Source: Rhodobacter sp. SGA-6-6
GTDB lineage: Bacteria > Pseudomonadota > Alphaproteobacteria > Rhodobacterales > Rhodobacteraceae
DNA: 64,000 nucleotides
Reading direction: 5' to 3'
NCBI RefSeq assembly: GCF_011043545.1
Contig: NZ_JAAKGP010000014.1
Span: 1-64,000, forward strand
The notes beneath the pieces are model-generated. The model did no database searches. It saw only the letters and a list, made by a program, of their open reading frames with translations, and was not told where the DNA came from. This document shows positions 372 through 52,110 of the stretch, piece after piece. Each line of letters begins with the position of its first letter. Position 1 is the first letter of the stretch. A program made the translations under genes and the position numbers.

Positions 372-762
372 CGGTCTGTCCTTGTCCTTGGAGTTGCGGG
401 CCGCAGTCTCGGCCGCGGGGCAGGGCCCGTCGCCGCCGTCCGCGACCTCCGGCTGGGCCGGCAGCGACATGGGGAGGGGGAAACTGGCGCGCGTCATCTG
501 GCGAAGGCGCGTGCCTTCGCCACAGCGCAACGCTTCCCCTTGTCCCGGCCGGGACCATAAGTCCCGGCCAGCGCCCGCCCCGCCCTCGGCGGGCGCTTCT
601 CGCCCGCCGGGTCGGGCGCTGGCCTCTCGGGGTTCAGGACTGCCACCGTCTCCGGGTGAACCGTCGCGCACGGGCGGGGGCGAGGCAGTGCCTCGCCTGT
701 TCCCGCCCGGCCATATCGGTGAGCGTCGTGCACAGGAGGCTAGCCGCCACTACGCGCCCCCC
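372..762. other. Gene-free gap holding repeat copy A1
   Basis: The gap lies between the cupin gene and chpT. Bases 499-710 are the first copy of the 210-bp repeat family A, described separately. The flanks (372-498 and 711-762) show no convincing coding or RNA signal; open frames crossing the gap run through the repeat and are not genes. Confidence 0.6.
499..710 (+). repeat. Repeat family A, copy 1 (about 210 bp)
   Basis: First of seven near-complete copies of one intergenic element. It begins TGGCGAAGGC, contains a 9-bp hairpin (GGCGAAGGC / GCCTTCGCC), a CCGGCC-GGCCGG hairpin around a variable loop, a large hairpin built on GGCGGGCGCTTCTCGCCCGC, and ends with nested arms GGGCGGG...CCCGCCC around GGCGAGGCAGTGCCTCGCC. 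Other copies start at 9918, 20503, 26196, 34733, 37192 and 51902, with a fragment at 51754. All read in the same direction. Confidence 0.9.
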
Positions 763-1359
763 TCAGAACCCCAGCCGGATCGCGTTCTCCTTCAACTCCG
801 CCACCAGCCGCCGGCCCTGCGCCCGCAGTTCCTCGGGCACCAGGGCGAAATGCACCTGGCCGGCGCCGATCTCGGCGGGGGCATGGCGTTCGGTCAGCAC
901 CTCCCACAGCGCCGGGTCGATCTTCAGCCGCGGCGCCTCGGCCTGCATCACCCAGCCGCCTTCGCCCTTCTCGATCCGCACCCGGCCGCCATAGGCCATC
1001 GCCGTCTCCAGGCATTGCAGCAAGAGGAAGGCCAGCTTCACCTCGCGCCGCGGCAGGTCGGCCTCGCTGACCCATTCCACCTGCAGCCGTCCGCCCCGGG
1101 TCATGTCGGCGATGATCCCGGCCACCTCGCCCCTTGCGATCCTCTGGCCGCCGCCCGCCGCGCCATAGGCCACCCGGAAGAAGCGGATGCGGGCATTGGC
1201 GCTGGCCACGCTTTCGGCGATCAGCGCCAGTTCCGGCGTCTTCGCCGCGCCGTCCATCATCAGCAACTCCACCCCGTTGCCGATGGCGCCGATCGGGCTG
1301 ATAAGGTCATGGCAGATCCGCGAACCGATGAGGGCGGCGAGATCGGGCTTGTCTTGCAT
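763..1359 (-). CDS. chpT: Histidine phosphotransferase ChpT
   Basis: A 198-residue protein of the ChpT family, the phosphotransfer protein that passes phosphate from the hybrid kinase CckA to CtrA (and CpdR) in alphaproteobacteria. The phospho-acceptor motif is visible near the N-terminus as SRICHDLISPIGAIGNG, with His17. The rest resembles a degenerate histidine-kinase fold (dimerisation helices, then a non-ATP-binding Bergerat-like domain). The start at MQDKPDLAAL puts the His box at the family's usual position; longer frames extend into the neighbouring gene. It is divergent from the DUF3553 gene, with 30 bp between start codons. In Rhodobacteraceae this relay is known to affect motility and gene-transfer-agent genes; nothing here shows which outputs apply. 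Confidence 0.9.
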   Translation of the reverse strand: MQDKPDLAALIGSRICHDLISPIGAIGNGVELLMMDGAAKTPELALIAESVASANARIRFFRVAYGAAGGGQRIARGEVAGIIADMTRGGRLQVEWVSEADLPRREVKLAFLLLQCLETAMAYGGRVRIEKGEGGWVMQAEAPRLKIDPALWEVLTERHAPAEIGAGQVHFALVPEELRAQGRRLVAELKENAIRLGF

Positions 1360-1389
1360 GTCTTGGGGCCTCGTGCCGAAGGGGGTAGG

Positions 1390-1563
1390 GTGAATTCGCT
1401 GCTGGAGCCGGGCATGATGGTGCGCCACCCCGAGCGGCCGGACTTGGGCCTGGGGCAGGTGCAGTCGGTCATCGGCGCGCGCGCCACGGTGAACTTCGAA
1501 CATGCCGGAAAGGTAGTGATCGACCTGCGCCATGCGACCCTTCTGCCCGACTTCCAGAGCTGA
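1390..1563 (+). CDS. DUF3553 small protein
   Basis: A 57-residue protein starting at GTG (VNSLLEPGMMVRHPERP). The pattern of MVRHPERPDLGLGQVQS followed by RATVNFEHAGKVVID and ending in LLPDF is that of DUF3553, a compact beta-barrel-like domain seen in alphaproteobacteria and at the end of UvrD-type helicases. The GTG is preceded by AAGGGGGT; an internal ATG (MMVRHP) would cut the domain. It is divergent from chpT. Its function is unknown. Confidence 0.75.
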   Translation: MNSLLEPGMMVRHPERPDLGLGQVQSVIGARATVNFEHAGKVVIDLRHATLLPDFQS

Positions 1564-1724
1564 CACGCATAGTGGGTAAAGCTGTTGCGAATGCAACCGT
1601 GGATGGTGGAGCGGATGCAACACCCGCTGCCGCTTCGGTTGCATTGCATGGGGGGCGCGGCTAAGTCAGACTGGAACAAGGGACCCGCCGCGGACGGACC
1701 GGCAGGCAAAGGCGGGCAGACGGG

Positions 1725-2507
1725 ATGCGGGCGGAAGACACACCCTATACCTTGCGGCTGGCAAGCGACGCCTGCGACCTGCGCGCCGCGCAGCGCCTGC
1801 GATACCGCGTCTTCGTGCAGGAGCTGGGGGCGGATGGCCCGATGGTCGACCACGCCGCCGGCATCGAGGCCGATGCCTTCGACGCGCTGACCGACCACCT
1901 GATCCTGATCGACAACCGGGTGGACCCGGCCTCGGGCGACCATGTCGTCGGCGCCTACCGGCTGCTGCCCGGCGACCGGCTGGGGCCGGAGGGACGGTTC
2001 TATTCCGAGACCGAATACGACCTGACGCCGCTGCGCCGCTCGGGCCGGCGCCTGCTGGAACTGGGCCGCTCCTGCGTCGATGCCAATCACCGCGGCGGCA
2101 CCTCGATGTTCCATCTCTGGAACGGGCTGGCCGAATACGTGCTGGACCGCGGCATCGAGGTGCTGTTCGGCGTCGCCTCCTTCCACGGCACCGATGTCGA
2201 GGCGCTGGCCGAGCCGCTGTCCTGGCTGGGCCACCACCATCTTGCGCCGCCCGACATGCGGGTCCGCGCCCTGCCGCCCGGGCGGGCCGAGATGATCCGC
2301 ATCCCCGCCGACAGGCTGGACCGCGGCAGCGCGATGGCGGCGATGCCGGCGCTGATCAAGGCCTACCTCCGGCTGGGCGGCTTCGTCGGCGACGGCGCCT
2401 GGATCGACCATGAGTTCAACACCACCGATGTCTGCCTGGTGATGGACACCGGCCGGATGTCGGCCCGCCACCGCGACTTCTACATCCGCAAGCAGGGCCA
2501 GGCGTGA
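1725..2507 (+). CDS. olsB: L-ornithine N-alpha-acyltransferase OlsB
   Basis: A 260-residue GNAT-fold enzyme that transfers a 3-hydroxyacyl group from acyl carrier protein to the alpha-amino group of ornithine, the first step of ornithine-lipid synthesis. Family hallmarks visible are LRYRVFVQELGAD near residue 30, VVGAYRLLPGDR near 75, and the ELGRSCVDANHRGG block near 110, which matches OlsB/hemolysin-like acyltransferases. It overlaps olsA by four bases (GTGA), so the two are translationally coupled. Ornithine lipids are phosphorus-free membrane lipids often made under phosphate limitation; no Pho box was identified upstream. Confidence 0.92.
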   Translation: MRAEDTPYTLRLASDACDLRAAQRLRYRVFVQELGADGPMVDHAAGIEADAFDALTDHLILIDNRVDPASGDHVVGAYRLLPGDRLGPEGRFYSETEYDLTPLRRSGRRLLELGRSCVDANHRGGTSMFHLWNGLAEYVLDRGIEVLFGVASFHGTDVEALAEPLSWLGHHHLAPPDMRVRALPPGRAEMIRIPADRLDRGSAMAAMPALIKAYLRLGGFVGDGAWIDHEFNTTDVCLVMDTGRMSARHRDFYIRKQGQA

Positions 2508-3322
2508 GCTGGCAGGACGCCCCGCTGCCGCAGGTCCGCGCCGGCCCCTTCGGCTGGCTGCGGGTGCTCTGGCGCGGCGCGGCGATGTCGGTGGTGACCT
2601 ATGGCTGCCTTATCCTGCTGCTGCTGGCCCGGCTGGTGGAACGTCCGCTCTGCGGCCCCGCCCGGCCGGTAACGCCGCATATCACCCAGTTCGTCTGCCG
2701 CGCCAATTGCGCCATCCTCGGGCTGGCCCGGGTGGTCCATGGCCGGCCGATGGCGCAGAAGGGGGCGGTGGTGGCCAACCATTCCTCCTGGCTGGACATC
2801 TTCACCCTGAACGCCTGCGACCGGGTGTATTTCGTGGCGAAGGCCGAGGTCTCGGGCTGGCCCGGCATCGGCTGGCTGGCCCGCGCCACCGGCACCGTCT
2901 TCATCCGCCGCCGGGGGGTGGAGGCGAAGGTGCAGCAGGACATCTTCGAGGCGCGGCTGCGGCAGGGCCACCGCCTGCTGTTCTTCCCCGAGGGCACCAG
3001 CACCGACGCGATCCGGGTGCTGCCGTTCAAGTCCTCGCTGTTCCAGGCTTTCTTCACCCATGGCCTCGACCGGGTGCTGTTCATCCAGCCGGTGACGGTG
3101 GTCTACCACGCGCCCGAGGGCGAGGACCCGCGCTTCTACGGCTGGTGGGGCGAGATGGATTTCGCCGGCCACCTGTGGAAGATGCTGGCCGCGCCCCGCC
3201 ACGGCCGGGTCGAGATCACCTTCCACCCCGAGGTGCCGGTGGACGGGTTCGAGGACCGCAAGGCCCTGGCCGCGCATTGCGAGCGGGTGATCCGCACCAG
3301 CCACCCGCTGGCGGTGGAGTGA
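2504..3322 (+). CDS. olsA: Lyso-ornithine lipid O-acyltransferase OlsA
   Basis: A 272-residue PlsC-type acyltransferase that completes ornithine-lipid synthesis by acylating the 3-hydroxy group of lyso-ornithine lipid. The catalytic HX4D box appears as NHSSWLD (about residue 90) and the second acyltransferase motif as FPEGTS (about 163). A hydrophobic segment near residues 27-45 fits membrane attachment. The GTG start overlaps the olsB stop codon in a GTGA junction. By sequence alone it could be a PlsC paralogue making phosphatidic acid; the coupling to olsB favours OlsA. Confidence 0.88.
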
Positions 3323-3395
3323 TCCGGCCGGAGGAGCCCCTTGCGGCCTTCCCCGGCCTCCCCTATCCCTTGCCGCACATTCAGGGGGGAACAGC

Positions 3396-4796
3396 ATGAT
3401 CCCGGTCACCGGCTACAGGGGCGCGAAGGTCGCCGTGCTCGGCCTCGGCCGCTCGGGCCTCGCCACCGCGGCGGCGCTGCGGGCCGGGGGGGCGGAGCCG
3501 CTGCTCTGGGACGACAGCCCCGAGGCGCGGGCGAAGGCGGAAGCCGAGGGCCATGTGCTGACCGACCTGACCCGCAACGCCGCCTTCGAGGGCGTCGCGG
3601 CGCTGATCGCCAGCCCCGGCATCCCGCATCTCTATCCCGCGCCGCATCCGGTGATCGCCCGCGCGCTGGAGGCGGGGGTGCCGGTGGACAACGACATCGG
3701 CCTCTTTTTCCAGAGCTGGGCCACCGCCGGCTGGGAGTCCTTCGACACCGCCCCGCGCGCCGTCGCCGTCACCGGCTCGAACGGCAAGTCCACCACCACG
3801 GCGCTGATCCACCACATCCTGCAGGTGGCCGGCCGCCCGACCCAGATGGCCGGCAACATCGGCAAGGGCGTCCTTTCCATCGACCCGGCCCAGGACGGCG
3901 AGGTGGTGGTGCTGGAGCTGTCCAGCTACCAGACCGAGCTGGCGCGGGCGCTGACCCCCGACGTGGCGGTCTTCACCAACCTCTCGCCCGACCACCTCGA
4001 CCGCCACGACGGCCCCGGCGGCTATTTCGCCGCCAAGCGCCGGCTCTTCGCCGAGGGCGGGCCGGACCGCGCGGTGATCGGCGTGGACGAGGTGGAGGGG
4101 CGGTTCCTGGCGAACCAGCTGGGGCAGGGGCCGGGCGACGACCGGGTGATCCGCATCTCCTCGGGGCAGAAGCTGGAGGGTTTCGGCTGGTCGGTCTTCG
4201 CCCGCAAGGGGTTCCTGGCGGAATGGCGCAAGGGCCGGCAGCTGGCCTCGATCGACCTGCGCGGGGTCAGGGGCCTGCCCGGCGCCCACAACCACCAGAA
4301 CGCCTGCGCCGCCTATGCCGCCGCCCGCGCCCTCGGCCTGGCGCCGAAGCTGATCGAGGGGGCGCTGCACAGCTTCGCCGGCCTCCCCCACCGCAGCCAG
4401 CTGGTGGCCGAGAAGGACGGGGTGCGCTTCGTCAACGACAGCAAGGCCACCAATGTCGACAGTGCCGCCAAGGCCCTGCAGGCCTTCCCGAAGATCCGCT
4501 GGATCGCCGGCGGCATGGGCAAGGAGGGCGGCATCGCCGCCTTGCACCCCTTCCTCGGCTCGGTGGTGAAGGCCTATCTGATCGGCCATTCCGCCCGCGA
4601 CTTCGCCCTGCAGATCGGCGCCACCCCGCACGAGATCTGCGAGACGATGGACCGCGCCGTCGCCCGCGCGGCGGCAGAGGCGCAGCCGGGCGAGGTGGTG
4701 CTGCTGGCCCCGGCGGCGGCGAGCTTCGATCAATACCCGAACTTCGAGAAACGCGGCGAGGATTTCACCGCGAGGGTGAAGGCCCTGGCCGGGTAA
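3396..4796 (+). CDS. murD: UDP-N-acetylmuramoylalanine--D-glutamate ligase MurD
   Basis: A 466-residue Mur ligase that adds D-glutamate to UDP-MurNAc-L-Ala in the cytoplasm. The N-terminal Rossmann domain starts with [15 protein letters not shown], the ATP-binding loop GSNGKST is at residues 127-133, and the C-terminal ligase domain has [13 protein letters not shown] and the GGMGKEGG segment. The length is normal for the family. It opens the mur/fts run on this strand, after olsA with a 73-bp gap. The usual upstream partners (mraY, murE, murF) are not in the window directly before it, so the cluster is split here. Confidence 0.97.
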
Positions 4797-4798
4797 TA

Positions 4799-4966
4799 TA
4801 TTGCGCGGCTTCGCCGCAAGCCTTTCGTCTCGCCTCTGCGCGCAAGCGCGCAACCGGCTCGGGCGTGCCTCCGGCGGGGATATTTGTCTCCAGAAAGAGG
4901 AGAGGGTCTTCTCCTCTTTCTGGACGATAAATATCCTCAGGGGGTTTGGGGGCAGAATGCCCCCAA
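4799..4966 (+). repeat. Repeat family B, copy 1
   Basis: Intergenic repeat between murD and ogt. Its parts are a GCGCGGCTTCGCCGC hairpin, CTCTGCGCGCAAGCGCGCA, CCTCCGGCGGGGATATTT, a hairpin built on CCAGAAAGAGGAG / CTCCTCTTTCTGG, then GATAAATATCCTC and GGGGGCAGAATGCCCCC. Related copies lie at 30869-31107 and 54740-54905 (both inverted), with a shorter relative at 58359-58460. Confidence 0.85.
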
Positions 4967-4987
4967 GGGCGAGGGAGGGGGACTTCG

Positions 4988-5497
4988 GTGAAAGAAAGCT
5001 GGATCGATACGCCCTTGGGGCCGATGCTGGCGGTGGCCGGGGAGGCGGCGCTGCATTTCCTCGACTGGGACGAGGGCCGGCGGTTGGCGATGGGGCGGAA
5101 GCGGCTGGCCGCATGGGGAGAGATCGCGGCCGGAGAGACGGCGGTGCATCGCGCGCTGCGCCGCCGGCTGGCGGCCTATTTCGCCGGGACCAGCGCCGCC
5201 TTCGACCTGCCGCTTTCGCAGCCCGGCCCGGCCTTCCGGCAATCGGTCTGGCAGGCGCTGCGGACCATTCCCGCCGGCCGGACCGAGACCTATGCCGGCC
5301 TCGCCCGCCGCCTCGGCCGGCCCGAGGCGGCGCGGGCGGTCGGCGCCGCCAACGGGGCCAACCTGATCTCGATCCTCGTCCCCTGCCACCGGCTGACCGG
5401 CAGCGGCGGCAGCCTGACCGGCTACGGCGGCGGGCTGCACCGCAAGGACTGGCTCCTGCGGCACGAGGCGGAAGCCTTCGGCCAGCATTCGCCCTAG
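4988..5497 (+). CDS. ogt: Methylated-DNA--protein-cysteine methyltransferase
   Basis: A 169-residue suicide repair enzyme that moves the methyl group from O6-methylguanine to its own cysteine. The acceptor site is ISILVPCHRL, with Cys133. The segment QSVWQALRTIPAGRTETYAGLARRLG is the typical DNA-binding wing region. The GTG start (VKESWIDTPLGP) follows a strong GGAGGGGG site and gives the usual Ogt length; an upstream ATG at 4946 would add residues read out of the repeat. The usual Asn-Pro before the active-site strand is Asn-Leu here. Its place between murD and ftsW is unusual. Confidence 0.92.
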   Translation: MKESWIDTPLGPMLAVAGEAALHFLDWDEGRRLAMGRKRLAAWGEIAAGETAVHRALRRRLAAYFAGTSAAFDLPLSQPGPAFRQSVWQALRTIPAGRTETYAGLARRLGRPEAARAVGAANGANLISILVPCHRLTGSGGSLTGYGGGLHRKDWLLRHEAEAFGQHSP

Positions 5498-5585
5498 CCA
5501 GACGGCCCGATTGCCGCTAGACTTCCGCCCCAGAGCCCGGGGGGAACATCCGGGCCAGAGGCAGTAAAATCGAGGCGGCATCCCC

Positions 5586-6752
5586 ATGACTGAGATGGTC
5601 TATGGCTCCAGTCCTGTTCCGGTCACGGAGCCGGTGCTTCCGCGCTGGTGGCGCACTATCGACAAATGGACGCTGTCGTCGATCTTCATGCTGTTCGGCA
5701 TCGGCCTCTTGCTCGGCCTCGCCGCCTCGGTGCCGCTGGCCAGCCGGAACGGGCTGGAACCCTTCTACTACGTCCAGAAACAGGCGCTGTTCGGCGGCAT
5801 GGGGCTCGCCACCATGATCGCCGTCTCGATGATGTCGCCCGAGACCGTCCGCCGCCTCGGCGTGATCGGCTTCCTCTTCGCCATGGTGCTGATCGTGGCG
5901 CTGCCCTTCGTAGGCGAGGACCACGGCAAGGGCGCCATCCGCTGGCTGTCGATCGGCGGCTTCTCGCTGCAACCCTCCGAGTTCCTGAAGCCCGCCTTCG
6001 TCGTCGTCACCGCCTGGCTGATGGCCGCCAGCCAGCAGGTCGGCGGGCCTCCGGGCAAGCTCCTGTCCTTCGGCATCCTCTGCACCGTGGTCGGTTTCCT
6101 CGCCATGCAGCCGGACTTCGGCCAGTCGGCGCTGATCCTTTTCGCCTGGGGGGTGATCTATTTCGTCGCCGGGGCGCCGATGGTGCTGATCCTTTTCATC
6201 GCCGGGCTGGTCGCCGGCGGCGGCGTCCTCGCCTATGGCGCATCGGAACACTTCGCCCGCCGGATCGACGGTTTCCTCGCCCCCGACGTCGATCCGCGCA
6301 CCCAGCTCGGCTATGCCACCAACGCCATCCAGGAGGGCGGCTTCTTCGGCGTCGGCGTCGGCGAGGGGCAGGTGAAATGGTCGCTGCCCGATGCCCATAC
6401 CGATTTCATCATCGCGGTGGCGGCCGAGGAATACGGGCTGATCCTCGTCCTCCTCATCCTCGCGCTGTTCGGCGTCATCGTCGTCCGCTCGCTGATCCGG
6501 CTGATGGCGGAGCGCGATCCCTTCACCCGGCTGGCCGGCGCCGGCCTTGCCTGCGTCTTCGGGGTGCAGGCGATGATCAACATGGGCGTGGCGGTGCGGC
6601 TGCTGCCGGCCAAGGGCATGACCTTGCCCTTCATCTCCTACGGCGGGTCCTCGCTGATCGCCGCCGGCATCACCGTGGGCGCCCTGCTGGCGATGACCCG
6701 GACCCGGCCGCGCGATCGCATGTCCGACGTGTTCCGGCGGAGCGGGCGGTAG
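5586..6752 (+). CDS. ftsW: Septal peptidoglycan glycosyltransferase FtsW
   Basis: A 388-residue SEDS-family membrane protein, the glycan polymerase of the divisome, working with FtsI. About ten hydrophobic segments are visible. Family signatures include LQPSEFLKPAFV (about residue 130), the extracellular loop GVGVGEGQVKWSLPDAHTDF and AVAAEEYGL (about 260-285), and LPFISYGGSSL near the C-terminus. It is directly followed by murG, with no bases between the stop and the next ATG. Confidence 0.95.
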   Translation: MTEMVYGSSPVPVTEPVLPRWWRTIDKWTLSSIFMLFGIGLLLGLAASVPLASRNGLEPFYYVQKQALFGGMGLATMIAVSMMSPETVRRLGVIGFLFAMVLIVALPFVGEDHGKGAIRWLSIGGFSLQPSEFLKPAFVVVTAWLMAASQQVGGPPGKLLSFGILCTVVGFLAMQPDFGQSALILFAWGVIYFVAGAPMVLILFIAGLVAGGGVLAYGASEHFARRIDGFLAPDVDPRTQLGYATNAIQEGGFFGVGVGEGQVKWSLPDAHTDFIIAVAAEEYGLILVLLILALFGVIVVRSLIRLMAERDPFTRLAGAGLACVFGVQAMINMGVAVRLLPAKGMTLPFISYGGSSLIAAGITVGALLAMTRTRPRDRMSDVFRRSGR

Positions 6753-9268: not shown

Positions 9269-9272
9269 GCGG

Positions 9273-9917: not shown

Positions 9918-10128
9918 TGGCGAAGGCCATCGCCTTCGCCACAGCGCACCGCTTCCCCTTGTCAGGCCGGGCCCTCAAGGCCCGGCCAGCGCCCGCCCGC
10001 CCCTCGGCGGGCGCTTCTCGCCCGCCCGGTCGGGCGCTGGCCTCTCGTGGTCTCGTGCCGTCACCGTCTTCGGTTGATCCGCCACGCACGGGCGGGGGCG
10101 AGGCAGTGCCTCGCCTGTTCCCGCCCGG
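9918..10128 (+). repeat. Repeat family A, copy 2
   Basis: Near-complete copy between the DUF2484 gene and murB, inside the mur/fts run. The structure and orientation match copy 1. It interrupts an otherwise tightly packed operon, so it is likely transcribed as RNA between the two genes. Confidence 0.88.
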
Positions 10129-20464: not shown

Positions 20465-20786
20465 AGGCGGCGGCGGTTCCCGCAGCCGCTCTGTATTTTC
20501 CATGGCGAAGGCCATTGCCTTCGCCACTACGCAACGCTTCCCCTTGTCCCGGCCGGGCCTCCAAGGCCCGGCCAGCGCCCGCCCCGCCCTCGGCGGGCGC
20601 TTCTCGCCCGCCGGGTCGGGCGCTGGCCTCTCGGGGTCTTGGGCTGCCAGCGTTTCCGGGTGATATGCCGCGCACGAGCGGGGGCGAGGCAGTGCCTCGC
20701 CTGATCCCGCCCGAGGCAAGGGGATGGCGGGGAGATCCCCGCCCTACGGCGCCTGTAGGGCGGGGTTCACCCCGCCACACCTGACC
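20465..20786. other. Gap with repeat A3 and C palindromes
   Basis: The stretch between the small gene and the convergent oxidase gene contains repeat A copy 3 (20503-20713) followed by two C palindromes (20726-20742 and 20758-20776). No gene or RNA is recognised in the remaining bases. Confidence 0.6.
20503..20713 (+). repeat. Repeat family A, copy 3
   Basis: Near-complete copy starting TGGCGAAGGCC and ending CTGATCCCGCCCG, with the same hairpin order and orientation as copy 1. It lies between convergent genes and is followed at once by family C palindromes. Confidence 0.88.
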
Positions 20787-26195: not shown

Positions 26196-26375
26196 TGGCG
26201 AAGGCCATCGCCTTCGCCACAGCGCGCCATTTCAATCAGGACCGGCCGGGCCTCGGCGGGCGCTTCTCGCCCGCCCGGGCGGGCGCTGGCCTCTCACAGT
26301 CTCGGGCTGCCAGGTTTCCGGTTGATGCGGCACGCACGGGCGGGGCGAGGCAGTGCCTCGCCTTTTCCCGCCCGG
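26196..26375 (+). repeat. Repeat family A, copy 4 (shortened)
   Basis: About 180 bp; the inner segment between the CCGGCC hairpin and the GGCGGGCGCTTCTCGCC hairpin is missing roughly 30 bases relative to copy 1. Both ends and the orientation are kept. Confidence 0.85.
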
Positions 26376-26391
26376 GGAAGCCGAAGGAGTG

Positions 26392-26447
26392 GCGGGGTGA
26401 ACCCCGCCCTACGTGTTGCGCCTCCGTAGGGCGGGGCACCCCGCCGC
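26392..26447. repeat. Family C palindromes (two copies)
   Basis: GGCGGGGTGAACCCCGCC at 26392-26409, and a related GTAGGGCGGGGCACCCCGCC in the second unit, lie directly after repeat A4 and before ppk2. Confidence 0.78.
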
Positions 26448-34677: not shown

Positions 34678-35045
34678 GGCGGGTACGGCGGGGCGAGGGG
34701 CCTCAGGGGGGCACTCCGCCGTCCGCTTGTCTTGGCGAAGGCGGGTGCCTTCGCCACGGCGCGCCATTTCAACCGGGACCGGCCGGGCCCCAAAGGCCCG
34801 GCCAGCGCCCGCCCGCCCCTCGGCGGGCGCTTCTCGCCCGCCCGGGCGGGCGCTGGCCTCTCCGGGTTTAGTGTGACTGCCGTCTCCGGCCGAACCCATT
34901 CGCACGGGCGGGGCGAGGCAGTGCCTCGCCTGTTTCCGCCCGCGGCGAGCGGAGTGCGGCGGGGAGACCCCCGCCCTACGGGGACGACCTTGCGTGAGGG
35001 AGTTTCCCCGCCTTTCCTGTCCGAAAAATATCCGCCTGACCGGCC
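34678..35045. other. Gap with repeat A5 and a C palindrome
   Basis: Between the P450 gene and the convergent purS lie repeat A copy 5 (34733-34943) and one C palindrome near 34962-34978. Nothing coding is supported. Confidence 0.6.
34733..34943 (+). repeat. Repeat family A, copy 5
   Basis: Near-complete copy starting TGGCGAAGGCGGGTGCCTTCGCC in outline and ending TGTTTCCGCCCG, with all hairpins present and the same orientation as the others. Confidence 0.88.
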
Positions 35046-37191: not shown

Positions 37192-37405
37192 TGGCGAAGG
37201 CCATTGCCTTCGCCACGGCGCAACGGTTCTGCTTATCCCGGCCGGGTGCCCAAAGCACCCGGCCAGCGCCCGCCCGCCTCCTGGCGGGCGCTTCACGCCC
37301 GCCCGGACGGGCGCTGGCCTCTCGGGATCTCGTGCCAGCAGCGTTTCCGGGTGAACCCGTTCGCACGGGCGGGGGCGAGGCAGTGCCTCGCCTGTTCCCG
37401 CCCGG
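37192..37405 (+). repeat. Repeat family A, copy 6
   Basis: Near-complete copy in the 393-bp gap before the homocysteine methyltransferase gene (37091-37483). The hairpin loop between the CCGGCC arms differs (GTGCCCAAAGCAC in place of the short spacer), with both sides changed to keep pairing. The rest of the gap, 37406-37483, shows only the ribosome-site region of the next gene. Confidence 0.88.
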
Positions 37406-42841: not shown

Positions 42842-42843
42842 GG

Positions 42844-43445: not shown

Positions 43446-43621
43446 TCCCGGTCCCGTTCGTGCCCGTCCAGGTCGCGGGCGGCCTTTTCCGCCCGCGCCT
43501 TCTCCAGCGCCTTCTCGGCCTTGGTCCGGCCGTGCTTCGCCGCATTGGCCTCCGCCCCGGCCCGCTTCTCGGCCCGGGCCTTCTCCTTGCGGAAGCGGTT
43601 GAGGTTGACGACCTCGGCCAT
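43442..43621 (-). CDS. DUF4169 protein
   Basis: A 59-residue, highly charged protein: [20 protein letters not shown], then HGRTKAEKALEKARAEK and the end DLDGHERDRD. This matches DUF4169, a helical family in Rhodobacteraceae found behind fumC. Its ATG shares one base with the fumC stop codon (TGATG), so translation is coupled. Function unknown. Confidence 0.85.
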   Translation of the reverse strand: MAEVVNLNRFRKEKARAEKRAGAEANAAKHGRTKAEKALEKARAEKAARDLDGHERDRD

Positions 43622-45015: not shown

Positions 45016-45204
45016 GGTGCCCTCCTGCGGAATCTCGCAGCGGGTCTAGCGCCGGGGGGCGGTGAAATCAATCGGCATACCGTCGCATACTGAGCGTGAC
45101 GGCTGTGGCCGGAAGCCGGGCCCACACCGGAAAGTTGTGCTATAACAGCCCCGAACGCGCAGCACGTCCGCGCCCTGCGGCCTGGAACCCGAAAGGAGCC
45201 ACCA

Positions 45205-45786: not shown

Positions 45787-45793
45787 CCTCTCT

Positions 45794-45813
45794 GCCGGGG
45801 CCTCAGCCCCGGC
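45794..45813. terminator. Bidirectional hairpin between convergent genes
   Basis: GCCGGGGC and GCCCCGGC with a CTCA loop lie between the DoxX stop and the end of the convergent methyltransferase gene, overlapping the latter's last codons. It could serve both strands, but there is no T-run. Confidence 0.5.
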
Positions 45814-46357: not shown

Positions 46358-46360
46358 GGG

Positions 46361-46810
46361 CTACTGCTTGCGGAAGCGGTCCAGCCGGACGATCTCGGCG
46401 TCGTGCGGCGGCGGATCGTCGTCGCCGTCGTCCTCTTCCTCCTCGTCTTCCTCTTCCTCGCGGGTCTCGAAGCGCAGGCCGAATTCCACCGAAGGGTCGA
46501 CGAAGGTGCGCACGGCGTCGAAGGGGATCACCAGCGGCTCGGGCTGGTTGCCGAAGTTCAGGGTGACCGAGAAGCCCTCGTCGGTGACGTCGAGGTTCTC
46601 GAACCAGTGCTGGATCACCACCGTCATCTCGGTGGGGTAGCGTTCCTTCAGCCAGTCGGCGATGGCGACATCGGGGTGGTTGGTGTCGAAGGTGATGAAG
46701 AAGTGATGCGCCCCGGGCAGGCCGTTCTTCGCCACATCGGCAAGCACGCTCTGGATCAGCCCGCGCATCGCCCGGTGCATCAGGTTGCCGTAGTCGATGC
46801 TGCGCGTCAT
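46361..46810 (-). CDS. sspB: ClpXP adaptor SspB
   Basis: A 149-residue alphaproteobacterial SspB, which brings ssrA-tagged proteins to ClpXP. The substrate-binding core has GLPGAHHFFITFDTNHPDV, MTVVIQHWFENLDV and FNVTLNFG-like FSVTLNFGNQPEPLVIP. An acidic stretch (EEEEDEEEEDDGDDD) links it to a C-terminal peptide ending in VRLDRFRKQ, which would dock on ClpX. The tmRNA gene that makes its substrates is only 2.4 kb away. Confidence 0.92.
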   Translation of the reverse strand: MTRSIDYGNLMHRAMRGLIQSVLADVAKNGLPGAHHFFITFDTNHPDVAIADWLKERYPTEMTVVIQHWFENLDVTDEGFSVTLNFGNQPEPLVIPFDAVRTFVDPSVEFGLRFETREEEEDEEEEDDGDDDPPPHDAEIVRLDRFRKQ

Positions 46811-46904
46811 TCGTCCCCCTTTCGCGGTTGGGTGCAGCATAGGGGATTCGCCGCCCAAGGAAAGGGGTGGCTGCGGCGAAAATGGGGCGGCCCCCGCCGA
46901 TGCG

Positions 46905-46930
46905 GAAGGGGGGCCCGGAGGCCCCCCTCG
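46905..46930 (-). terminator. Hairpin after the TonB-dependent receptor gene
   Basis: GGGGGGCC and GGCCCCCC arms with a four-base loop, about 25 bp past the receptor stop. On the gene strand it is followed by TTCCG, so it is not a classical T-tailed terminator. Confidence 0.5.
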
Positions 46931-46953
46931 GTTTCGTGCAGGCTGTGGTCGGG

Positions 46954-48960
46954 TCAGAACTTCATCCCGACGCCGAGGGTGACGGTGCGGCCCGGGCCGT
47001 AGATCGAATCCGCCGTGGTCGAGGAAACATAGCTCGACCGCTCGACATAGGTCTCGACGAACAGGTTGTCGACGCCCAGCCGGACCGTGAGGTTGTCGTG
47101 GCCCTGCGGCGACCATTCGCCATAGGCGTTGACCACGGCATAGGACTTCAGCGCATGGTAGGTGGTGCTGCCGTCCACGATCTCGGGGGTGCTGCCCGCC
47201 CATTCCACGGTGGCGCCGAGCTTCAGGTTGTAGGCCGGAAGCGCGTGGTCGACATAAAGCGTGGCCATCTTGCCCACCGGCATGAAGTAATAGCCGTTGG
47301 CGGGGATCACCGTCTGGCCGTCCTGGGTGACATCGGCCTTGGTGTAGGTCGCCCCGACCGTGGTGTCTCCGAGGTCCAGGCTGGCGTTCAGGGTGAAGCC
47401 CTTGCTGCGGTATTCGACGTCCGTGTTGGTCAGGAAGGTCACGCCGCCGCCGTCGGTCCCGCTGTAGGTCAGGGCGTTTTCCAGCCGGGTATCGAAGAAG
47501 GTGATGCCGGCCTTCCAGCTGTCGCCGCCGAAGTTGGCGCCGATCTTGAGGTTCTGCGCCTCGCCCGGCTGCAGGTCGGGGTCGGTGTAGAACGAATTGG
47601 TGCGGGCGTGCAGATAGGCATAGTCGCCGATCATGTAGCCCAGCCAGGTGTGCGAGGCCCCGGCGAAGACCTCGACATTGTCGTTGAAGCGGTAGGACAG
47701 GGTGCCGTTGACGCTGGCGCCGCTGTCGGTGAAGCGGTTGCCGTCCCAGTCGGTGAAGCGATGGACGTCATACCGAACCCCGGTCGACAGCTTGAAACCG
47801 CTGTCGAACTCGAACCGGCCCTGGGCGAACAGGCCGATCTGGTCGGAGGAGAAGTCGCGGTAGCGGCGGTCGTTGTTGCCGTAGTTGTCGATGCTGTAGT
47901 CGTGCATCCCGAAGTCCAGGCCAGCCGTCACCTTGCCCGCCGGAAGGGTGAAGGTGTTCTGGAACTTGCCGCCGAACAGGTCCTCGTCCAGGATCATGTT
48001 GCCGTTGGTGCGGTAGGCACCGTTGGTGGTGTAGTTGTTCCGCCAGTATTCATACTGGTTCAGGTAGATCGAGAACTCCGGGTCCCACAGGTCGGTGGGA
48101 TTGGTCGAGGTGTAGGACAGCTTCACCGAGGTATCGGTCACCTTCAGCGGGTTCAGCCCGGGTTCGCGCGGCGGAGCGAGGTCCATGTTCGCTTTCACCA
48201 GCCGGTCGGCATCGTCCACGCTGTGCGAGAAGGACAGCTCGATCCGATGGTCCTCGAACTCGTATCCCACCTTCGCCAGGGCCGAGCGCACGGCGGGCGC
48301 GGTGCCCTTGGTCACCTCGCCGTCGCCGTTCTTGTAATCCTTGCCATCGGCGCCGTGCAGGATCACCAGCCAGTCGAACCCTTGGTGCTGGCCGTAACCC
48401 GCAAGGCTGGCAGAGACGCCCTGACCGTTGCTGCCCCAGGCCAGCGAGGCCCGCCCGCCGATGGTCTGGCCGTCCTCCAGCAGGTCCTTCGCGCCCACGG
48501 TTTCATAGCGCAGGGCGCCGGCGGCGGCGCCGAAGCCCGCATCGGCGGCAGCCGCGCCGGCCTCGACCTCGACCTGCTTCAGGAAGCTCGGGTCCACCGC
48601 ATGGGAGCCGGTGTGGTGCCAGCTGGTCGCGACCTGCGCCACGCCGTCGACGGTGACGGCCAGCAGCGACTGCTCCATGCCGAAGACGCTGACCCGTTTC
48701 GCCACGCCGCCGCCGGCCGAGACCGTCACCGCGGATTCGCGCGCGAACAGTTCCGAGAGGTTGGCCGGGGCCAGCTTCTCGATATCCTCCTCCGTCACCA
48801 CGGCGCCGCCGGTGGCCTCGATGTTCTCCTGGCCGCCGAAGATCAGGGTGATGGTGCCGAGAAAGGTGCCGAGCGGCGACTGGCTGTCCTGGGCCACGGC
48901 GGCGGACGACAAGGCGATGGCGGAAACGCCGCCCAAAAGGGCAAGTGCCCGGAGTCTCAT
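46954..48960 (-). CDS. TonB-dependent outer membrane receptor
   Basis: A 668-residue outer membrane receptor. A signal peptide (MRLRALALLGGVSAIALSSAAVAQ, cleaved after about residue 24) is followed by a plug domain (about 45-150) with VSVFGMEQSLLAVTVDGV, and a beta-barrel of many Tyr/Asp-rich strands ending in the C-terminal Phe (TVTLGVGMKF). The substrate is unknown: no siderophore, heme or cobalamin transport genes are adjacent. The barrel has many DYSID- and YRDF-type loops but no diagnostic motif. Confidence 0.9.
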   Translation of the reverse strand: MRLRALALLGGVSAIALSSAAVAQDSQSPLGTFLGTITLIFGGQENIEATGGAVVTEEDIEKLAPANLSELFARESAVTVSAGGGVAKRVSVFGMEQSLLAVTVDGVAQVATSWHHTGSHAVDPSFLKQVEVEAGAAAADAGFGAAAGALRYETVGAKDLLEDGQTIGGRASLAWGSNGQGVSASLAGYGQHQGFDWLVILHGADGKDYKNGDGEVTKGTAPAVRSALAKVGYEFEDHRIELSFSHSVDDADRLVKANMDLAPPREPGLNPLKVTDTSVKLSYTSTNPTDLWDPEFSIYLNQYEYWRNNYTTNGAYRTNGNMILDEDLFGGKFQNTFTLPAGKVTAGLDFGMHDYSIDNYGNNDRRYRDFSSDQIGLFAQGRFEFDSGFKLSTGVRYDVHRFTDWDGNRFTDSGASVNGTLSYRFNDNVEVFAGASHTWLGYMIGDYAYLHARTNSFYTDPDLQPGEAQNLKIGANFGGDSWKAGITFFDTRLENALTYSGTDGGGVTFLTNTDVEYRSKGFTLNASLDLGDTTVGATYTKADVTQDGQTVIPANGYYFMPVGKMATLYVDHALPAYNLKLGATVEWAGSTPEIVDGSTTYHALKSYAVVNAYGEWSPQGHDNLTVRLGVDNLFVETYVERSSYVSSTTADSIYGPGRTVTLGVGMKF

Positions 48961-49149
48961 GATTCTGTCCCTTCGTATCGGTATTGGCGGGGACCGGAGA
49001 ATCGGGGCCTGGCTGTTTGCTCCATCCTGCTAGCAACAGCGGCGAGGAGATTGAAGGGGCGGGGGAGGGGGCGTCTTGCCGCAGTTGCGGGGGAAGCACA
49101 GGCCGTCGTGCCGGGGAGGCCGGGTCGGGGACTGGTGCTTCGGGAGGAA
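48961..49149 (-). promoter_or_regulatory. Leader region of the TonB-dependent receptor gene
   Basis: This stretch lies between the tmRNA coding piece and the receptor start. It holds a CCGCAACTGCGG palindrome near 49085, an AAGCAC...GTGCTT stem around it, and a GCTGTT...AACAGC stem-loop near 49020-49045. No Fur, RirA or Mur box is clear. The CCCCCGCAACTG string recalls a cobalamin riboswitch, but the rest does not fit. Confidence 0.35.
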
Positions 49150-49463
49150 AGTGCAGGCTTCTGTTGCCAGGTGCCTGCGGACCCCGCCCTGCGCGGCTAA
49201 GCGCAGGGGCTTGTGTTTGGTATTGCGAGCCGCTTACGCAGCCAGCGCCACCGGAGCACGGTTGTCATTGGCAACTGTGATCTTGGACCGATAACGGTGG
49301 TACCTCACCGAGCGAAAGCTGGCCTCTTTGAACGTCCGTCGATCCTGTTTCGGCCCCGTCCTCCCGCAATGCCGGGGTGTTGGTGGAGCCGCCGGGTACC
49401 GCCCCCGGGTCCGAGCCGTCTATTACAGGTGCGTTTATCGCCATAGTCCGGGTCGCCCCGGGC
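49150..49463 (-). ncRNA. ssrA: Two-piece tmRNA (ssrA), circularly permuted
   Basis: On this strand the acceptor piece comes first and ends in GGCGGCTCCACCA (CCA at 49383-49381). After a 23-base spacer (49358-49380) the coding piece begins GGGGCCGAAACAGGATCGAC at 49357. GGGGCCG pairs with CGGCTCC over seven positions, with a G3-U70 wobble, the alanine tRNA identity element. The tag frame GCC AAT GAC AAC ... GCG TAA lies at 49272-49234 and encodes ANDNRAPVALAA. The T-arm has a non-standard loop (GGCGGTA). The 3' end near 49150 and the 5' end near 49463 are estimates. tmRNA rescues stalled ribosomes and tags the product for ClpXP. Confidence 0.95.
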
Positions 49464-49470
49464 AAGAGGG

Positions 49471-49499
49471 AATATAGGGGCCGCAGGGGCAGGGCGCAA
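49471..49499 (-). promoter_or_regulatory. Promoter of ssrA
   Basis: TTGCGC (-35, 49499-49494) and TATATT (-10, 49476-49471) are spaced by exactly 17 bp, placing a start site near 49463, just before the acceptor piece. Confidence 0.75.
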
Positions 49500-49631
49500 G
49501 GGGCGCGGCGCCGGCGGGTGGACGAAGGATTTCAAGGGGTTGGCGAGGGGCCACGCCGGAGCCCGCACCGCCGTCCCCGCGGGGCTTGACGCCGCGGCCC
49601 GTCCCCGGCCAGGATGGCGCATCGACCGAGT

Positions 49632-49738
49632 GGCAACTAGGGTTCCGGGCCGCCCGCAACGGCCGCCGCAGGACCGAGCGTTGCAGAGACCGGGGAGTTC
49701 CCGGCTGCACCCAAGGGGAAAAAGCCCAGGGGAGGAGA
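49632..49738 (+). ncRNA. ykkC-family riboswitch (guanidine-I or related class)
   Basis: Conserved blocks match the ykkC aptamer in order: ACTAGGGTTCCG (49636-49647), CAGGACCGAGCG (49669-49680), an inner hairpin (GCAG...CTGC, 49683-49708), and AAGGGGAAAAAGCCCAGGGG (49713-49732) as the 3' signature. It lies 41 bp before a drug/metabolite-type transporter gene. Most ykkC RNAs bind guanidine and control export or breakdown; others bind ppGpp, PRPP or nucleotides. The ligand class was not resolved. Confidence 0.8.
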
Positions 49739-49779
49739 CGTCGAGATCAACCGTGCCGATAGGCGCAAAGGGGATCTCC

Positions 49780-50612
49780 ATGACGCTTGCCTCGCTGTCT
49801 CTCGTCGTTCTTGCAGCCTTCATCCATGCCGGCTGGAACCTGCTGGCCAAGCGGGCCGCCCCGGTCGGGCCGGTCTTCGTCTTCGCCTACAACCTGATCG
49901 CCTGCCTCGCCTACGGGCCCTGGGTGATCTGGCTGCTGGCGCGGGGCGGCATCGCCTGGACGGCGGCGGGCGTCGGCTTCGTCCTGCTCAGCGGGCTGAT
50001 CCATCTGGGCTACAGCCTCTGCCTGCAGCGCGGCTATCAGGTCGCGGACCTGTCGGTGGTCTATCCGGTGGCACGCGGCACCGGGCCGATGCTGTCGACC
50101 CTGGGCGCCGTCCTGATCCTCGGCGAGGCGCCGACCGGCAGCCGGATCGCCGGGCTGGCGCTGGTGGTGGCGGGCATCCTCTTGATCGCCACGCAGGGCA
50201 GGCTGGCGGCCTTCGCCCGCCCGGGCGGGCAGGCCGGACTCGGCTGGGGCGCGGCGACCGGCGGGGGACGCTGGGCCTCGCGCCGGTGGTGCTGGACTGG
50301 TTCTCCAACCTGCTGCGGTTCTTCCTGCTGTTGCCGCTGGTCTTGGCCGATCCCCGCCGCGCGCGCGAGGCGATGCGGGGGCATTGGCGGACCGCCATCG
50401 GCGTCGGGCTGCTGTCGCCCTTGTCCTATATCCTGGTGCTGGCGGCGCTGCGCCAGGGCGCGCCGCTCAGCCTGGTGGCGCCGATGCGGGAGATGTCGAT
50501 GATGGTCGGCGCGCTGATGGGGATGCTGATCCTGCGCGAGCCGGTCGGGCCGGCACGGCTGGCGGGCTGCGGCGTGCTGGCCGCCGGGGTGATCCTGCTG
50601 TCGGCTTCCTGA
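49780..50612 (+). pseudogene. EamA-type DMT transporter, frameshifted
   Basis: The first part (49780 to about 50265) reads MTLASLSLVVLAAFIHAGWN, with hydrophobic segments and SVVYPVARGTGPMLSTLG. It then loses frame: after GLGWGAATGG the reading continues as nonsense, while the transporter pattern resumes in another frame from about 50270 (LGLAPVVLDWFSNLLRF... VAPMREMSMMVGALMGM) and ends at 50612. The two halves join to about 277 residues, whereas EamA proteins have about 290; roughly 14 residues around the sixth membrane segment (I-x-x-Y-T-x-x-D region) seem missing. This fits a deletion of length 3n+1, possibly an assembly error. It sits behind the ykkC-type RNA. Confidence 0.82.
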
Positions 50613-50617
50613 CGGTG

Positions 50618-51607
50618 CTACGCCCGCACGTCCACCACCACCCGCCCCTGCACCTGCCCCTTCAGGATCGCCGCGCCGAGCGCCGGGACCTCGGTCAGCG
50701 CGGCGGGGCGGACCATCGCCTTCAGCTTCGCCATCGGCATCTCGCGGGCGAGGCGGTCCCAAGCCTGCACCCGGCGGAGGTAGGGGACGGTGACGGAGTT
50801 GATGCCGAGCAGCTTCACCCCGCGCAGCAGGAAGGGGATGATGTTGGCCGGCACCTGCAGCCCGCCGGCATTGCCGACGGCGGCCACCGCGGCCTCGGCC
50901 TTCATCTGGCCGAGGACCCGGGCCAGCATCGCGCCGCCCACGGCGTCGATGCAGCCGGCCCAGGTTTCCGATTCCATCGGTTTCTTCACCGTCTCGGCAA
51001 GGTCCTCGCGCGGGACGATGCGGGCGGCGCCGAGGCCGGCCAGGTAGTCCGCCGTCTCCGGCCGCCCGGTCACCGCCGCCACCCGGTAGCCGCGCGCCGC
51101 CAAAAGCGCCACGGCGACCGAGCCGACGCCGCCGGCCGCCCCGGTCACCAGCACCTCGCCGGCATCGGGCGTCAGGCCGTGGGCTTCCAGGTCGATCAGC
51201 GCCAGCATGGCGGTGAAGCCGGCGGTGCCGATCGCCATCGCCTGCCGGGTGGTCAGGCCGGCGGGCAGGGGGACCAGCCAGTCGGCCCTGACCCGGGCCT
51301 TCTCGGCGAAGCCGCCCCAATGCGCCTCGCCCACCCGCCAGCCGGTCAGCACCACGGCGTCGCCGGGCCGGTAGCGCGGGTCCGAAGAAGATTCGACCCG
51401 GCCGGCGAAGTCGATGCCGGGGACATGCGGGTAATTGCGCACCAGCCCGCCGCCCGAGGGCGAGAGGCAGAGCCCGTCCTTGTAGTTCAGCGTCGAATAT
51501 TCCACCGCGACGGTGACCTCGCCTTCCGGCAGGGCGCCGTCCTCCAGCTCCGCCAGCCGCGCGGCGGCGGCGTCGCCGGCCTTCTCCATCAGTATCGCGC
51601 GAAACAT
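50618..51607 (-). CDS. acuI: Acryloyl-CoA reductase AcuI / YhdH family
   Basis: A 329-residue medium-chain NADPH-dependent reductase without zinc motifs. Family marks are VEYSTLNYKDGLCLS (about 36-50), the NADPH loop VTGAAGGVGSVAVALLA (about 150), and NIIPFLLRGVKLLGINSV. AcuI reduces acryloyl-CoA to propionyl-CoA and protects against acrylate in DMSP-using Rhodobacteraceae; YhdH homologues do the same in E. coli. No dmd or dddL gene is next to it, so DMSP use cannot be claimed. Confidence 0.88.
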   Translation of the reverse strand: MFRAILMEKAGDAAAARLAELEDGALPEGEVTVAVEYSTLNYKDGLCLSPSGGGLVRNYPHVPGIDFAGRVESSSDPRYRPGDAVVLTGWRVGEAHWGGFAEKARVRADWLVPLPAGLTTRQAMAIGTAGFTAMLALIDLEAHGLTPDAGEVLVTGAAGGVGSVAVALLAARGYRVAAVTGRPETADYLAGLGAARIVPREDLAETVKKPMESETWAGCIDAVGGAMLARVLGQMKAEAAVAAVGNAGGLQVPANIIPFLLRGVKLLGINSVTVPYLRRVQAWDRLAREMPMAKLKAMVRPAALTEVPALGAAILKGQVQGRVVVDVRA

Positions 51608-51753
51608 CCGATCCTCCGTTCCTGCCCGGGGCCGCAGGGGCCGCCCGAATCCCGTCGTCCGGGCACAAGACTGCCCCGCTTCGGGGCGGAGGAACAGGGC
51701 GGAGGGCGGGTTTTGCTGTTCGGGACGGTGTTTGCCATCCGATCCGCTGCCCG

Positions 51754-51800
51754 TGGCGAAGGCACGGGCCTTCGCCATAGCGCAACGGTTCAACCCGCCC
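51754..51800 (+). repeat. Repeat family A, fragment
   Basis: Only the first hairpin (TGGCGAAGGC...GCCTTCGCC) and the GCGCAACGGTT stretch remain, ending near CAACCCGCCCGG, which resembles the element's far end. It looks like a copy with its middle deleted. Confidence 0.75.
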
Positions 51801-51901
51801 GGAGAGACCGGGTGAGGCCCCGTAGGGCGGGGTTACCCCGCCAAGGCCCGGCTGCTGGGCGGCGAAGCAGGGGAGAATCCGCCTCCACGCCCCGTCCGTC
51901 T

Positions 51902-52110
51902 TGGCGAAGGCGCGTGCCTTCGCCACAGCGCACCGTTTCAATCGGGACCGGCCGGGCCTCAAAGGCCCGGCCAGCGCCCGCCCCCGGCGGGCGCTTCTCG
52001 CCCGCCGGGTCGGGCGCTGGCCTCTCGTGGTTTAAAGCCACCATCGTCTCCGGGTGATATGACGCGCACGGGCGGGGGCGAGGCAGTGCCTCGCCTTTTT
52101 CCCGCCCGGG
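51902..52110 (+). repeat. Repeat family A, copy 7
   Basis: Near-complete copy about 100 bp downstream of the fragment, same orientation, ending CCTTTTTCCCGCCCGGG. Confidence 0.88.

Follow-up and report, generated by a model that had tools for sequence, protein, structure and literature searches.

Within the 64,000-nucleotide stretch of Rhodobacter sp. SGA-6-6 DNA analysed here (the window), a multi-hairpin repeat recurs in a single orientation, raising the question of what the element is and why its copies should share a direction. The initial annotation had described seven near-complete copies and one fragment, all reading the same way and with the same order of hairpins, and both a multiple alignment and a covariance model bear this description out (Table 1). 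The seven copies have sharp ends and a common hairpin order, and all seven core matches in the window (7/7) lie on the forward strand. The covariance model, built from these seven copies, re-finds them by construction at 168.6-247.3 bits, and it locates the fragment at 51734-51833, also on the forward strand, with 32.4 bits. The stronger minus-strand matches of the model in the window are antisense readings or single hairpins at the same sites.

Table 1. Copies of the element in the window, and sub-parts of the first copy
Feature	Positions	Strand	Basis
Full copy 1, reference for the sub-parts	499..709	+	Alignment, covariance model, sequence
Full copy 2	9918..10128	+	Alignment, covariance model
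Full copy 3	20503..20713	+	Alignment, covariance model
Copy 4, internal deletion in hairpins A/B	26196..26374	+	Alignment, covariance model
Full copy 5	34733..34943	+	Alignment, covariance model
Full copy 6, longer covarying hairpin A	37192..37405	+	Alignment, covariance model
Fragment, hairpin 1 at its start, no recognised core	51754..51800	+	Covariance model
Full copy 7	51902..52110	+	Alignment, covariance model
Degenerate left arm, genome consensus ~CsCGGYYTCCT	487..498	+	Flank composition, 95 copies
Hairpin 1: 10-bp stem, 4-base loop, TGGCGAAGGC-GCGT-GCCTTCGCCA	499..522	+	Sequence; helix 1
Hairpin A: 9-bp stem	547..569	+	Sequence; helix 2
Hairpins B + C: outer AGCGCCCG/CGGGCGCT, inner GGCGGGCG/CGCCCGCC	570..620	+	Sequence; helices 3 and 4
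Hairpin 4: bulged double helix CGGGCGGG..GGCGAGGC-AGT-GCCTCGCC..CCCGCCCG	671..709	+	Sequence; helices 5 and 6
Degenerate right arm, genome consensus ~GCCARRCCGnGG	710..721	+	Flank composition, 95 copies

The element measures 210-240 bp and the full unit about 235-240 bp; beyond each end originally assigned, copies have in common about 12 more degenerate bases that the initial annotation had not foreseen. In 96 copies the boundary reads TGGC..CCCG, inside the two degenerate arms, and neither a GTAG or CGTC tag at a hairpin end nor a 20-40 bp unit was found there. Across the same copies, hairpin segments are more conserved (means of 0.91-0.96) than linkers (0.75 and 0.81) or flank arms (left 0.55, right 0.49). 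The sequence of copy 1 also permits alternative pairings, of the right arm of hairpin A with a GGCC located after hairpin B, and of the arms of hairpins B and C in other combinations. A possible outer stem in which the left flank of a copy pairs with its right flank was rejected, own pairs being no better than permuted ones (p = 0.13 at 30 nt; p = 0.24 at 60 nt). Part of hairpins A and B is missing from the copy at 26196, which is about 179 bases long instead of about 211. Matches to hairpin 1 outside the elements, mostly chance palindromes by our reading, were excluded from the copy counts.

Paired positions change together. In the copy at 37192 a longer CCGGGTGC/GCACCCGG hairpin is altered on both sides, as had been proposed from the window alone, and the same form occurs in a further copy (L002). 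The compensatory changes anticipated for an alignment of copies were found in a cross-species set of 27 sequences, in which 16 pairs have changed on both sides (104 cells, compared with a mean of 37 after shuffling); helix 1 shows them in 6 of its 10 pairs, and helices 3 and 4 are almost invariant. The initial annotation had taken such changes as a sign of selection on structure. The covariation is strong, but G-U pairs are few, at 17 of 1277 paired cells, and hairpin arms differ as blocks between genomes, with the copies read within one genome mostly agreeing, so that selection on structure is not strictly implied. Palindrome correction at the DNA level could be an alternative source of the same pattern.

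The search of the genome and its relatives that the initial annotation had called for reveals an abundant and widely distributed family. A 32-base core pattern, with at most three mismatches allowed, has 85 forward and 110 reverse matches in the SGA-6-6 genome, and none in either direction when read backwards as a control, giving about 195-198 copies genome-wide. Pairwise divergence among 96 copies has a minimum of 4.7% and a mean of 15.8%, and the absence of near-identical copies implies that movement has not been recent. Each of the 17 further Rhodobacter-group genomes that could be reached contains the core, at 1-167 copies, with high counts of 167, 86, 57, 53, 41 and 35 in other lineages; with no more than three mismatches allowed, it occurs 24 and 32 times in two R. 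capsulatus assemblies. A covariance-model search of 12 congeners, in which up to 39 candidates were scored for each genome, gave 0-3 matches per genome; the five matches, of which one is weak, fall in 3 of the 12. Hairpin arms are lineage-specific in the loci read from several high-count genomes, and some MAGs and related genomes carry head-to-tail arrays with a period of about 239 bp, which had likewise not been foreseen. Two presence/absence differences separate related genomes: F. blasticum (C11:61151) and Kandeliimicrobium each have a copy whose flanks, at their best matches in SGA-6-6, enclose a site without a recognisable copy, with intergenic flanks too diverged for an exact empty site or insertion junction to be defined. 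The exact core pattern identified no viral contig and blastn returned only two plasmid records, both from Leisingera and both matching part of the core; a phage or plasmid origin was hence rejected, and the earlier suggestion that polarity is linked to transfer gains no support.

Polarity was assessed in 1.65 Mb (the window plus 1.58 Mb) of the 67-contig assembly, comprising 88 copies and 38% of the genome. By our own gene calls, with overlaps of a few bases tolerated, the 86 copies that have two called neighbours are all intergenic, and they lie between convergent (36), tandem (42) or divergent (8) genes. With the leading strand inferred contig by contig from GC skew and GGGNAGGG, 72 of these 86 copies show leading-strand orientation. 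The local direction of GGGNAGGG within 9 kb agrees with that of the copy in 66 cases, disagrees in 13 and is tied in 9 (88 copies). A motif artefact was rejected, since the element was omitted from this local test and a GTAG-type REP, a distinct repeat also present in this sequence, shows no polarity (24 versus 30). Polarity as a by-product of gene orientation was rejected as well: replication direction predicts copy orientation with p = 5e-11, beside p = 0.09 for gene direction, and leading-strand orientation is seen in 30 of 36 convergent and 8 of 8 divergent settings. That copies mostly point along replication suggests that a process tied to the fork spreads or keeps the element.

The replication-linked polarity put forward in the initial annotation hence stands for this genome, with the exception of a 337-kb contig of mixed orientation (C44, 4 versus 5), but it does not extend to the relatives sampled. 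No polarity was detected in the samples from R. capsulatus DSM 1710 (16 versus 14) or Frigidibacter albus (8 versus 11), it was inconsistent in five amplified MAGs, and the F. albus and M090S1 samples even lean against the leading-strand direction. Replication polarity as a general property of the element across relatives is not supported.

The reading that we favour, with a probability of roughly 0.45, is that the element is an undescribed non-autonomous palindromic mobile repeat, of the kind of BIME, ERIC and BRE, inserted at replication forks by a putative enzyme acting in trans. A hairpin-built mobile repeat of the Rhodobacter group would have reached about 200 copies in the SGA-6-6 lineage, a single strand of it folding into several hairpin domains. 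The enzyme would recognise the folded strand, or the ends of the unit, while exposed at the fork. Its insertions would favour one orientation with respect to the moving fork and would mostly fall immediately downstream of genes, where harm would be small. What we infer from these patterns is that the element is mobile, that it passes through a single-strand or fork-coupled intermediate, and that such an enzyme exists.

Whatever its nature, such an enzyme is not a recognisable Y1 transposase. The Y1 family (PF01797; IS200/IS605/RAYT) has no match in the SGA-6-6 genome, in a search for which 5 of 14 control genomes were positive, and it is absent from 17 of 18 other element-bearing genomes, the remaining one giving a marginal match (G108, PARRP1). 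A RAYT/Y1 transposase as the driver was rejected on the absence of matches in the genome; an extinct or undetected enzyme is possible. A group II intron or retron reverse transcriptase was also rejected, the sole RVT_1 match in the genome being closest to Drt2 defence reverse transcriptases (PADLOC E = 3e-129), with 382 bits against the NCBIfam Drt2 model, just below its cut-off of 390, and 66 bits against a group II model with a cut-off of 300. Neither an autonomous version, with a gene flanked by both end hairpins, nor an autonomous partner sharing the degenerate inverted 12-base end arms was found in the 1.65 Mb searched (38% of the genome). Target-site duplications, which a MITE of a DDE transposon would be expected to have, show no clear excess at lengths of 2-6 and 8 bases (95 copies): taking the best of 289 offset pairs, the largest counts are 20 against 9.8 expected for 2 bases, 10 against 4.8 for 3 and 4 against 1.7 for 4, with at most two for longer ones.

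The main rival, which we consider doubtful, is that insertion is unbiased and selection then purges wrong-way copies, either through a folded lagging-strand template or a bound protein that would impede forks in one direction, or through a role of the unit as a strand-polar chromosome landmark, as KOPS and AIMS motifs are. The independence of polarity from gene direction fits this explanation, as does the higher conservation of hairpins over linkers and flank arms, as if each copy were constrained. Leading and lagging copies are, however, similarly diverged (0.109 versus 0.116, p = 0.41), and polarity is if anything weaker in the most diverged quarter, where 6 of 24 copies are lagging, versus 8 of 72 (p = 0.11). 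Purging is further at odds with the mixed orientation tolerated in C44 and with the sampled relatives, which are without such polarity.

It is unlikely that the element is instead a structured RNA, a transcribed 3'-UTR stabiliser or terminator spread by recombination and oriented by transcription. The upstream gene is co-directional for 63 of 86 copies, which start a median of 35 bp past the stop codon, convergent genes flank 36 of 86 copies, compared with 75 of the 565 gene junctions whose gap is at least 100 bp, and there is covariation across the 27 sequences. Nevertheless, gene direction is no significant predictor once replication is included, the upstream gene is antisense for 23 of 86 copies, G-U pairs are scarce, and no run of at least four T follows the hairpins in the sequence of copy 1. 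Rfam offers no counterpart either: a search of the window at gathering thresholds returned only tmRNA models, away from the copies, and none matched over the element in five loci at E up to 10, so that identity with an Rfam family was rejected. The impression recorded in the initial annotation that the element is not a described family agrees with these searches and with the literature searched.

About as improbable as an RNA function is maintenance of the arms by template-switch palindrome correction at forks and recombination between copies, in the absence of selection, with polarity the relic of a finished, ancient, replication-biased burst of duplication. Arms that vary in whole blocks from genome to genome and are mostly alike among the copies read from one, few G-U pairs, shortened derivatives in which hairpins 1 and 4 lie close together, and a lack of young copies are all in keeping with correction, which by itself nonetheless leaves both the roughly 200 dispersed copies and the non-homogenised linkers unexplained. 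Less likely still is a fork-coupled, protein-free palindromic replicator without transposase, whose folded single strand would spread via host replication and repair functions and which, if real, would have written fork direction into the chromosome some 200 times.

Composite palindromic repeats are common in bacteria, and a family of about 200 copies with several covarying domains provides a usable handle on the spread of those that have no transposase. With a strand bias in one lineage, unseen in sampled relatives, and genomes in which amplification has gone to many different degrees (from 1 to 167 core copies among 17 genomes), comparing biased with unbiased lineages could reveal the gene conferring it. 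ERIC, RIME, Correia and BOX elements, which belong to other taxa, are likewise structured and intergenic, measure about 100-200 bp and have no genes of their own; they are not known to show replication polarity. REP, BIME and REPIN sequences are described as mostly intergenic, 3' of genes, hairpin-based and often of high copy number, with some species-specific families and composite arrangements (PMC3733652, PMC2817692, PMC3116915). The element resembles REP/BIME and their RAYT-associated GTAG and CGTC super-families in being intergenic, 3' of genes, hairpin-built and of high copy number; those systems nevertheless consist of 20-40 bp units that carry a tetranucleotide tag and often lie in alternating or opposed directions, whereas the element is one directional multi-domain unit of about 240 bp, with no such tag and no RAYT found in the genome. 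The BRE of Bordetella are portrayed as GC-rich, usually intergenic repeats roughly 90 bp long, which form tandems at certain loci and vary in number between related genomes, with a maximum of 29 per genome and, in their authors' account, no co-orientation with the replication fork (PMC3110155). BRE are likewise GC-rich, tandem-capable and usually intergenic, and are set apart, by description only, in lacking fork co-orientation and in their lower maximum number per genome. Fork-coupled orientation bias is stated in a review for IS200/IS605, Tn7 (TnsE) and clamp-binding transposases (PMC5371812), and IS200/IS605 members such as IS608 and ISDra2 carry secondary structures near their ends and follow replication via the lagging-strand template (PMC5371812, PMC6006769). 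Those insertion sequences encode a Y1 transposase, for which the element is too short and of which none was found in its genome; like them, it follows host replication in its orientation, as 72 of 86 copies do in this genome, though not those sampled from R. capsulatus and F. albus.

All seven repeat copies and the single fragment that the initial annotation placed in the window (C6:1-64000) were recovered by alignment, covariance model (CM) and sequence, all on the plus strand. Across the 4.29 Mb (67 contigs) of the Rhodobacter sp. SGA-6-6 genome, the 32-base core pattern yields 85 + 110 occurrences at up to 3 mismatches, with 0 control matches, and a slightly shorter core 87 + 111. Orientation was analyzed in 80 stretches (1.58 Mb) plus the window, amounting to 1.65 Mb or 38% of the genome and containing 42 + 46 copies on the two strands. 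Most stretches form a regular grid across the eight largest contigs met in this genome; those of C3, C4, C5 and C11 and the last of C23, C33 and C55 were chosen to hold already listed copies, and the sample is therefore not fully blind to copy positions.

With the leading strand of each sampled contig inferred from GC skew and the direction of GGGNAGGG, which we take to be a putative KOPS proxy in the Rhodobacter group, 72 of the 86 copies with two called neighbours are in leading orientation (binomial p=1.4e-10), while called genes in the sample number 854 leading vs 726 lagging. Leading copies predominate between convergent (30 to 6) and divergent genes (8 to 0), and in co-directional (21 to 6) and antisense (13 to 2) tandem contexts; in a joint model, copy orientation follows replication direction (p=5e-11), with gene direction at p=0.09. 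Local GGGNAGGG direction, used without contig labels, agrees with 66 copies and disagrees with 13 over 9 kb (9 ties), and with 58 and 16, respectively, over 4 kb (14 ties). Contig C44 goes against a simple polarity rule, its copies being mixed (4 vs 5), and leaving it out gives leading orientation in 68 of 77 copies. On the sampled parts of C44, GGGNAGGG points one way (50 to 13) despite the mixed copies, and three stretches sampled within 10-110 kb contain none. Contig C1 also fits such a rule poorly, since its GGGNAGGG signal is weak (37 vs 60), yet its copies divide 15 vs 2.

The replication-linked polarity proposed from the window is supported in this genome, C44 apart, but was not seen in the sampled relatives. 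In Rhodobacter capsulatus DSM 1710, where windows around copies covered 31 of 32 listed copies, no polarity was seen (16 leading and 14 lagging by GGGNAGGG, 16 and 11 by GC skew), and in Frigidibacter albus, where the windows covered 19 of 31 listed copies, the tally leans the opposite way (8 leading and 11 lagging by GGGNAGGG, 5 and 14 by skew). Loci in metagenome-assembled genomes (MAGs) were scored as same, opposite or undecided by the sign of local GGGNAGGG, giving 6, 7 and 8 in M53BS1 (21 distinct places), 2, 6 and 3 in M051S1, 5, 1 and 2 in M113S1, 1, 3 and 0 in M090S1, and 4, 1 and 0 in MAG50. Pooled over the five MAGs, for loci among the exact-pattern matches listed, GGGNAGGG stands at 43 same vs 59 opposite (p=0.14). 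MAG50, whose hairpin arms resemble those of Rhodobacter sp. SGA-6-6, leans the same way as that genome, but five loci prove nothing.

Compensatory change, also claimed from the window, is borne out by an alignment of 27 rows, comprising 29 loci minus two without an extraction hit, L228 (a sequence duplicate of L196) and L192 (whose core is rearranged), plus two window copies. The named structure pairs in 94.1% of 1357 cells, and both sides are altered in 16 pairs and 104 cells, against a shuffle mean of 37 (0 of 500 as high) and at most 15 for slid structures. All 16 pairs lie within hairpins 1, A and 4, with almost no variation in B and C, and the arms of hairpin 1 vary blockwise by genome (GCGAAGG, GCAGGGG, GCCGAGG, GCACAGG) with matching complements. 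Of the 1277 paired cells only 17 are G-U, a scarcity that we read as pointing to a DNA palindrome rather than an RNA.

Anatomy of the repeat and positions of associated features
Feature	Length or position	Remark
Hairpin 1	24 bases	first part of full unit
Linker 1	~24 bases	between hairpin 1 and hairpin A
Hairpin A		after first linker, before nested B/C
Nested hairpins B/C	51 bases	arms able to pair in more than one way
Linker 2	~50 bases	between B/C and hairpin 4
Hairpin 4, bulged	39 bases	last part of full unit
Hairpins 1 and 4 close together	C1:50353-50548, C1:578577-578751, C12:464250-464386, C23:425996-426091	no core pattern match
GTAG-type REP (GTAGGGCGGGGTTCACCCCGCC)	window ~26390-26415 and 34958-34982	distinct from the element; also at flanks of other copies
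Permuted tmRNA	window 49150-49503, minus strand	alphaproteobacterial
Reverse transcriptase (L328)	C13:6694-7290	431 aa, nearest Drt2 antiviral RTs

In a set of 100 copies, both ends were recognised in 96, and 4 lacked one end. Mean column conservation over the 96 is 0.91-0.96 in hairpin segments, 0.75 and 0.81 in the two linkers, 0.55 and 0.49 in the flanking 12 bases on either side, and ~0.4 farther out; pairwise divergence averages 15.8% (minimum 4.7%). These 12-base outer arms are degenerate inverted sequences, and with them the unit reaches ~235 bp, near the ~239 bp period of head-to-tail arrays in related MAGs. The close-set pairs of hairpins 1 and 4 look like products of internal deletion between hairpins.

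The pattern search was positive in 4 of 100 genomes of the relatives set, Rhodobacter sp. SGA-6-6 included. With at most 39 candidates per genome scored, which caps the counts, the CM matched 12 of 60 genomes at E ≤1e-4, strongly and at full length in this genome, G010, G011 and G024, and weakly in the other eight (best E 8e-9 to 8e-5, many of these matches being core-only). Using a G011 copy as DNA query gave 11 places in G011 itself and another 9 in G024, mostly partial. Over GTDB species contigs the exact pattern matched at least 57 stretches, those listed being titled Rhodobacter, Pseudorhodobacter, Frigidibacter, Fuscovulum, Kandeliimicrobium or Rhodobacteraceae bacterium. Seventeen genomes reached through these loci carry, at up to 2 mismatches, 167, 86, 41, 57, 53, 2 (F. 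blasticum), 20, 1 and 35 (G100-G108) and 5, 2, 8, 22, 3, 6, 1 and 2 (G109-G116) core copies. A wider core relative, in which hairpin A precedes four arms complementary to one another, is present in further members of the family such as the single-contig G015, where this diverged cousin (L046, L056, L064, L068; 13 pattern hits, 5 forward and 8 reverse) has its inner loop opened by inserts tens of bases long.

Most loci compared for gain and loss gave no clean two-sided flank match, and the following comparisons are single cases, several matched on one flank only. F. blasticum and Kandeliimicrobium have a copy between flanks that in Rhodobacter sp. SGA-6-6 enclose no recognisable copy; at C23:174432, the shared upstream stretch is followed in F. 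blasticum, too, by a copy, oriented alike; and next to the downstream genes shared with the C12:136202 site, the copies of two MAGs are oriented the other way.

Taken together, intergenic spread, amplification within a lineage, ends built of hairpins, the lack of a clear target duplication among the copies checked and fork-dependent orientation resemble single-strand transposition. A review (PMC5371812) states that elements transposing as single strands, and likewise several clamp-binding transposases, take their orientation from replication; a potentially relevant paper cited there reportedly treats the beta clamp and how transposable elements are oriented. The main rival holds that selection on orientation after insertion produces the polarity; against it there is weak evidence, in that leading and lagging copies do not differ in divergence and the most diverged quarter is slightly, not significantly, less polar. 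A single-strand transposition-like process would require a Y1 enzyme, for which searches of this genome gave no match, and the only reverse transcriptase found is Drt2-like. A frame near that reverse transcriptase looks like a single-strand-binding protein.

The GTAG-type REP is enriched next to the element on both sides. Its 54 copies in the 1.65 Mb (up to 3 mismatches) have no replication polarity (24 leading, 30 lagging), and no RAYT was found in the genome.

The initial annotation recognised no described family, and searches of the open-access literature likewise yielded no description of the element and no replication-polar multi-hairpin repeat in the Rhodobacter group; passages of a structured-RNA survey with Rhodobacterales motifs (PMC8632094) contain nothing of its kind. 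Among the closest in print, as far as excerpts of the sources go, are the GTAG/CGTC REP super-families and the BRE of Bordetella, the latter described as not following the direction of replication.
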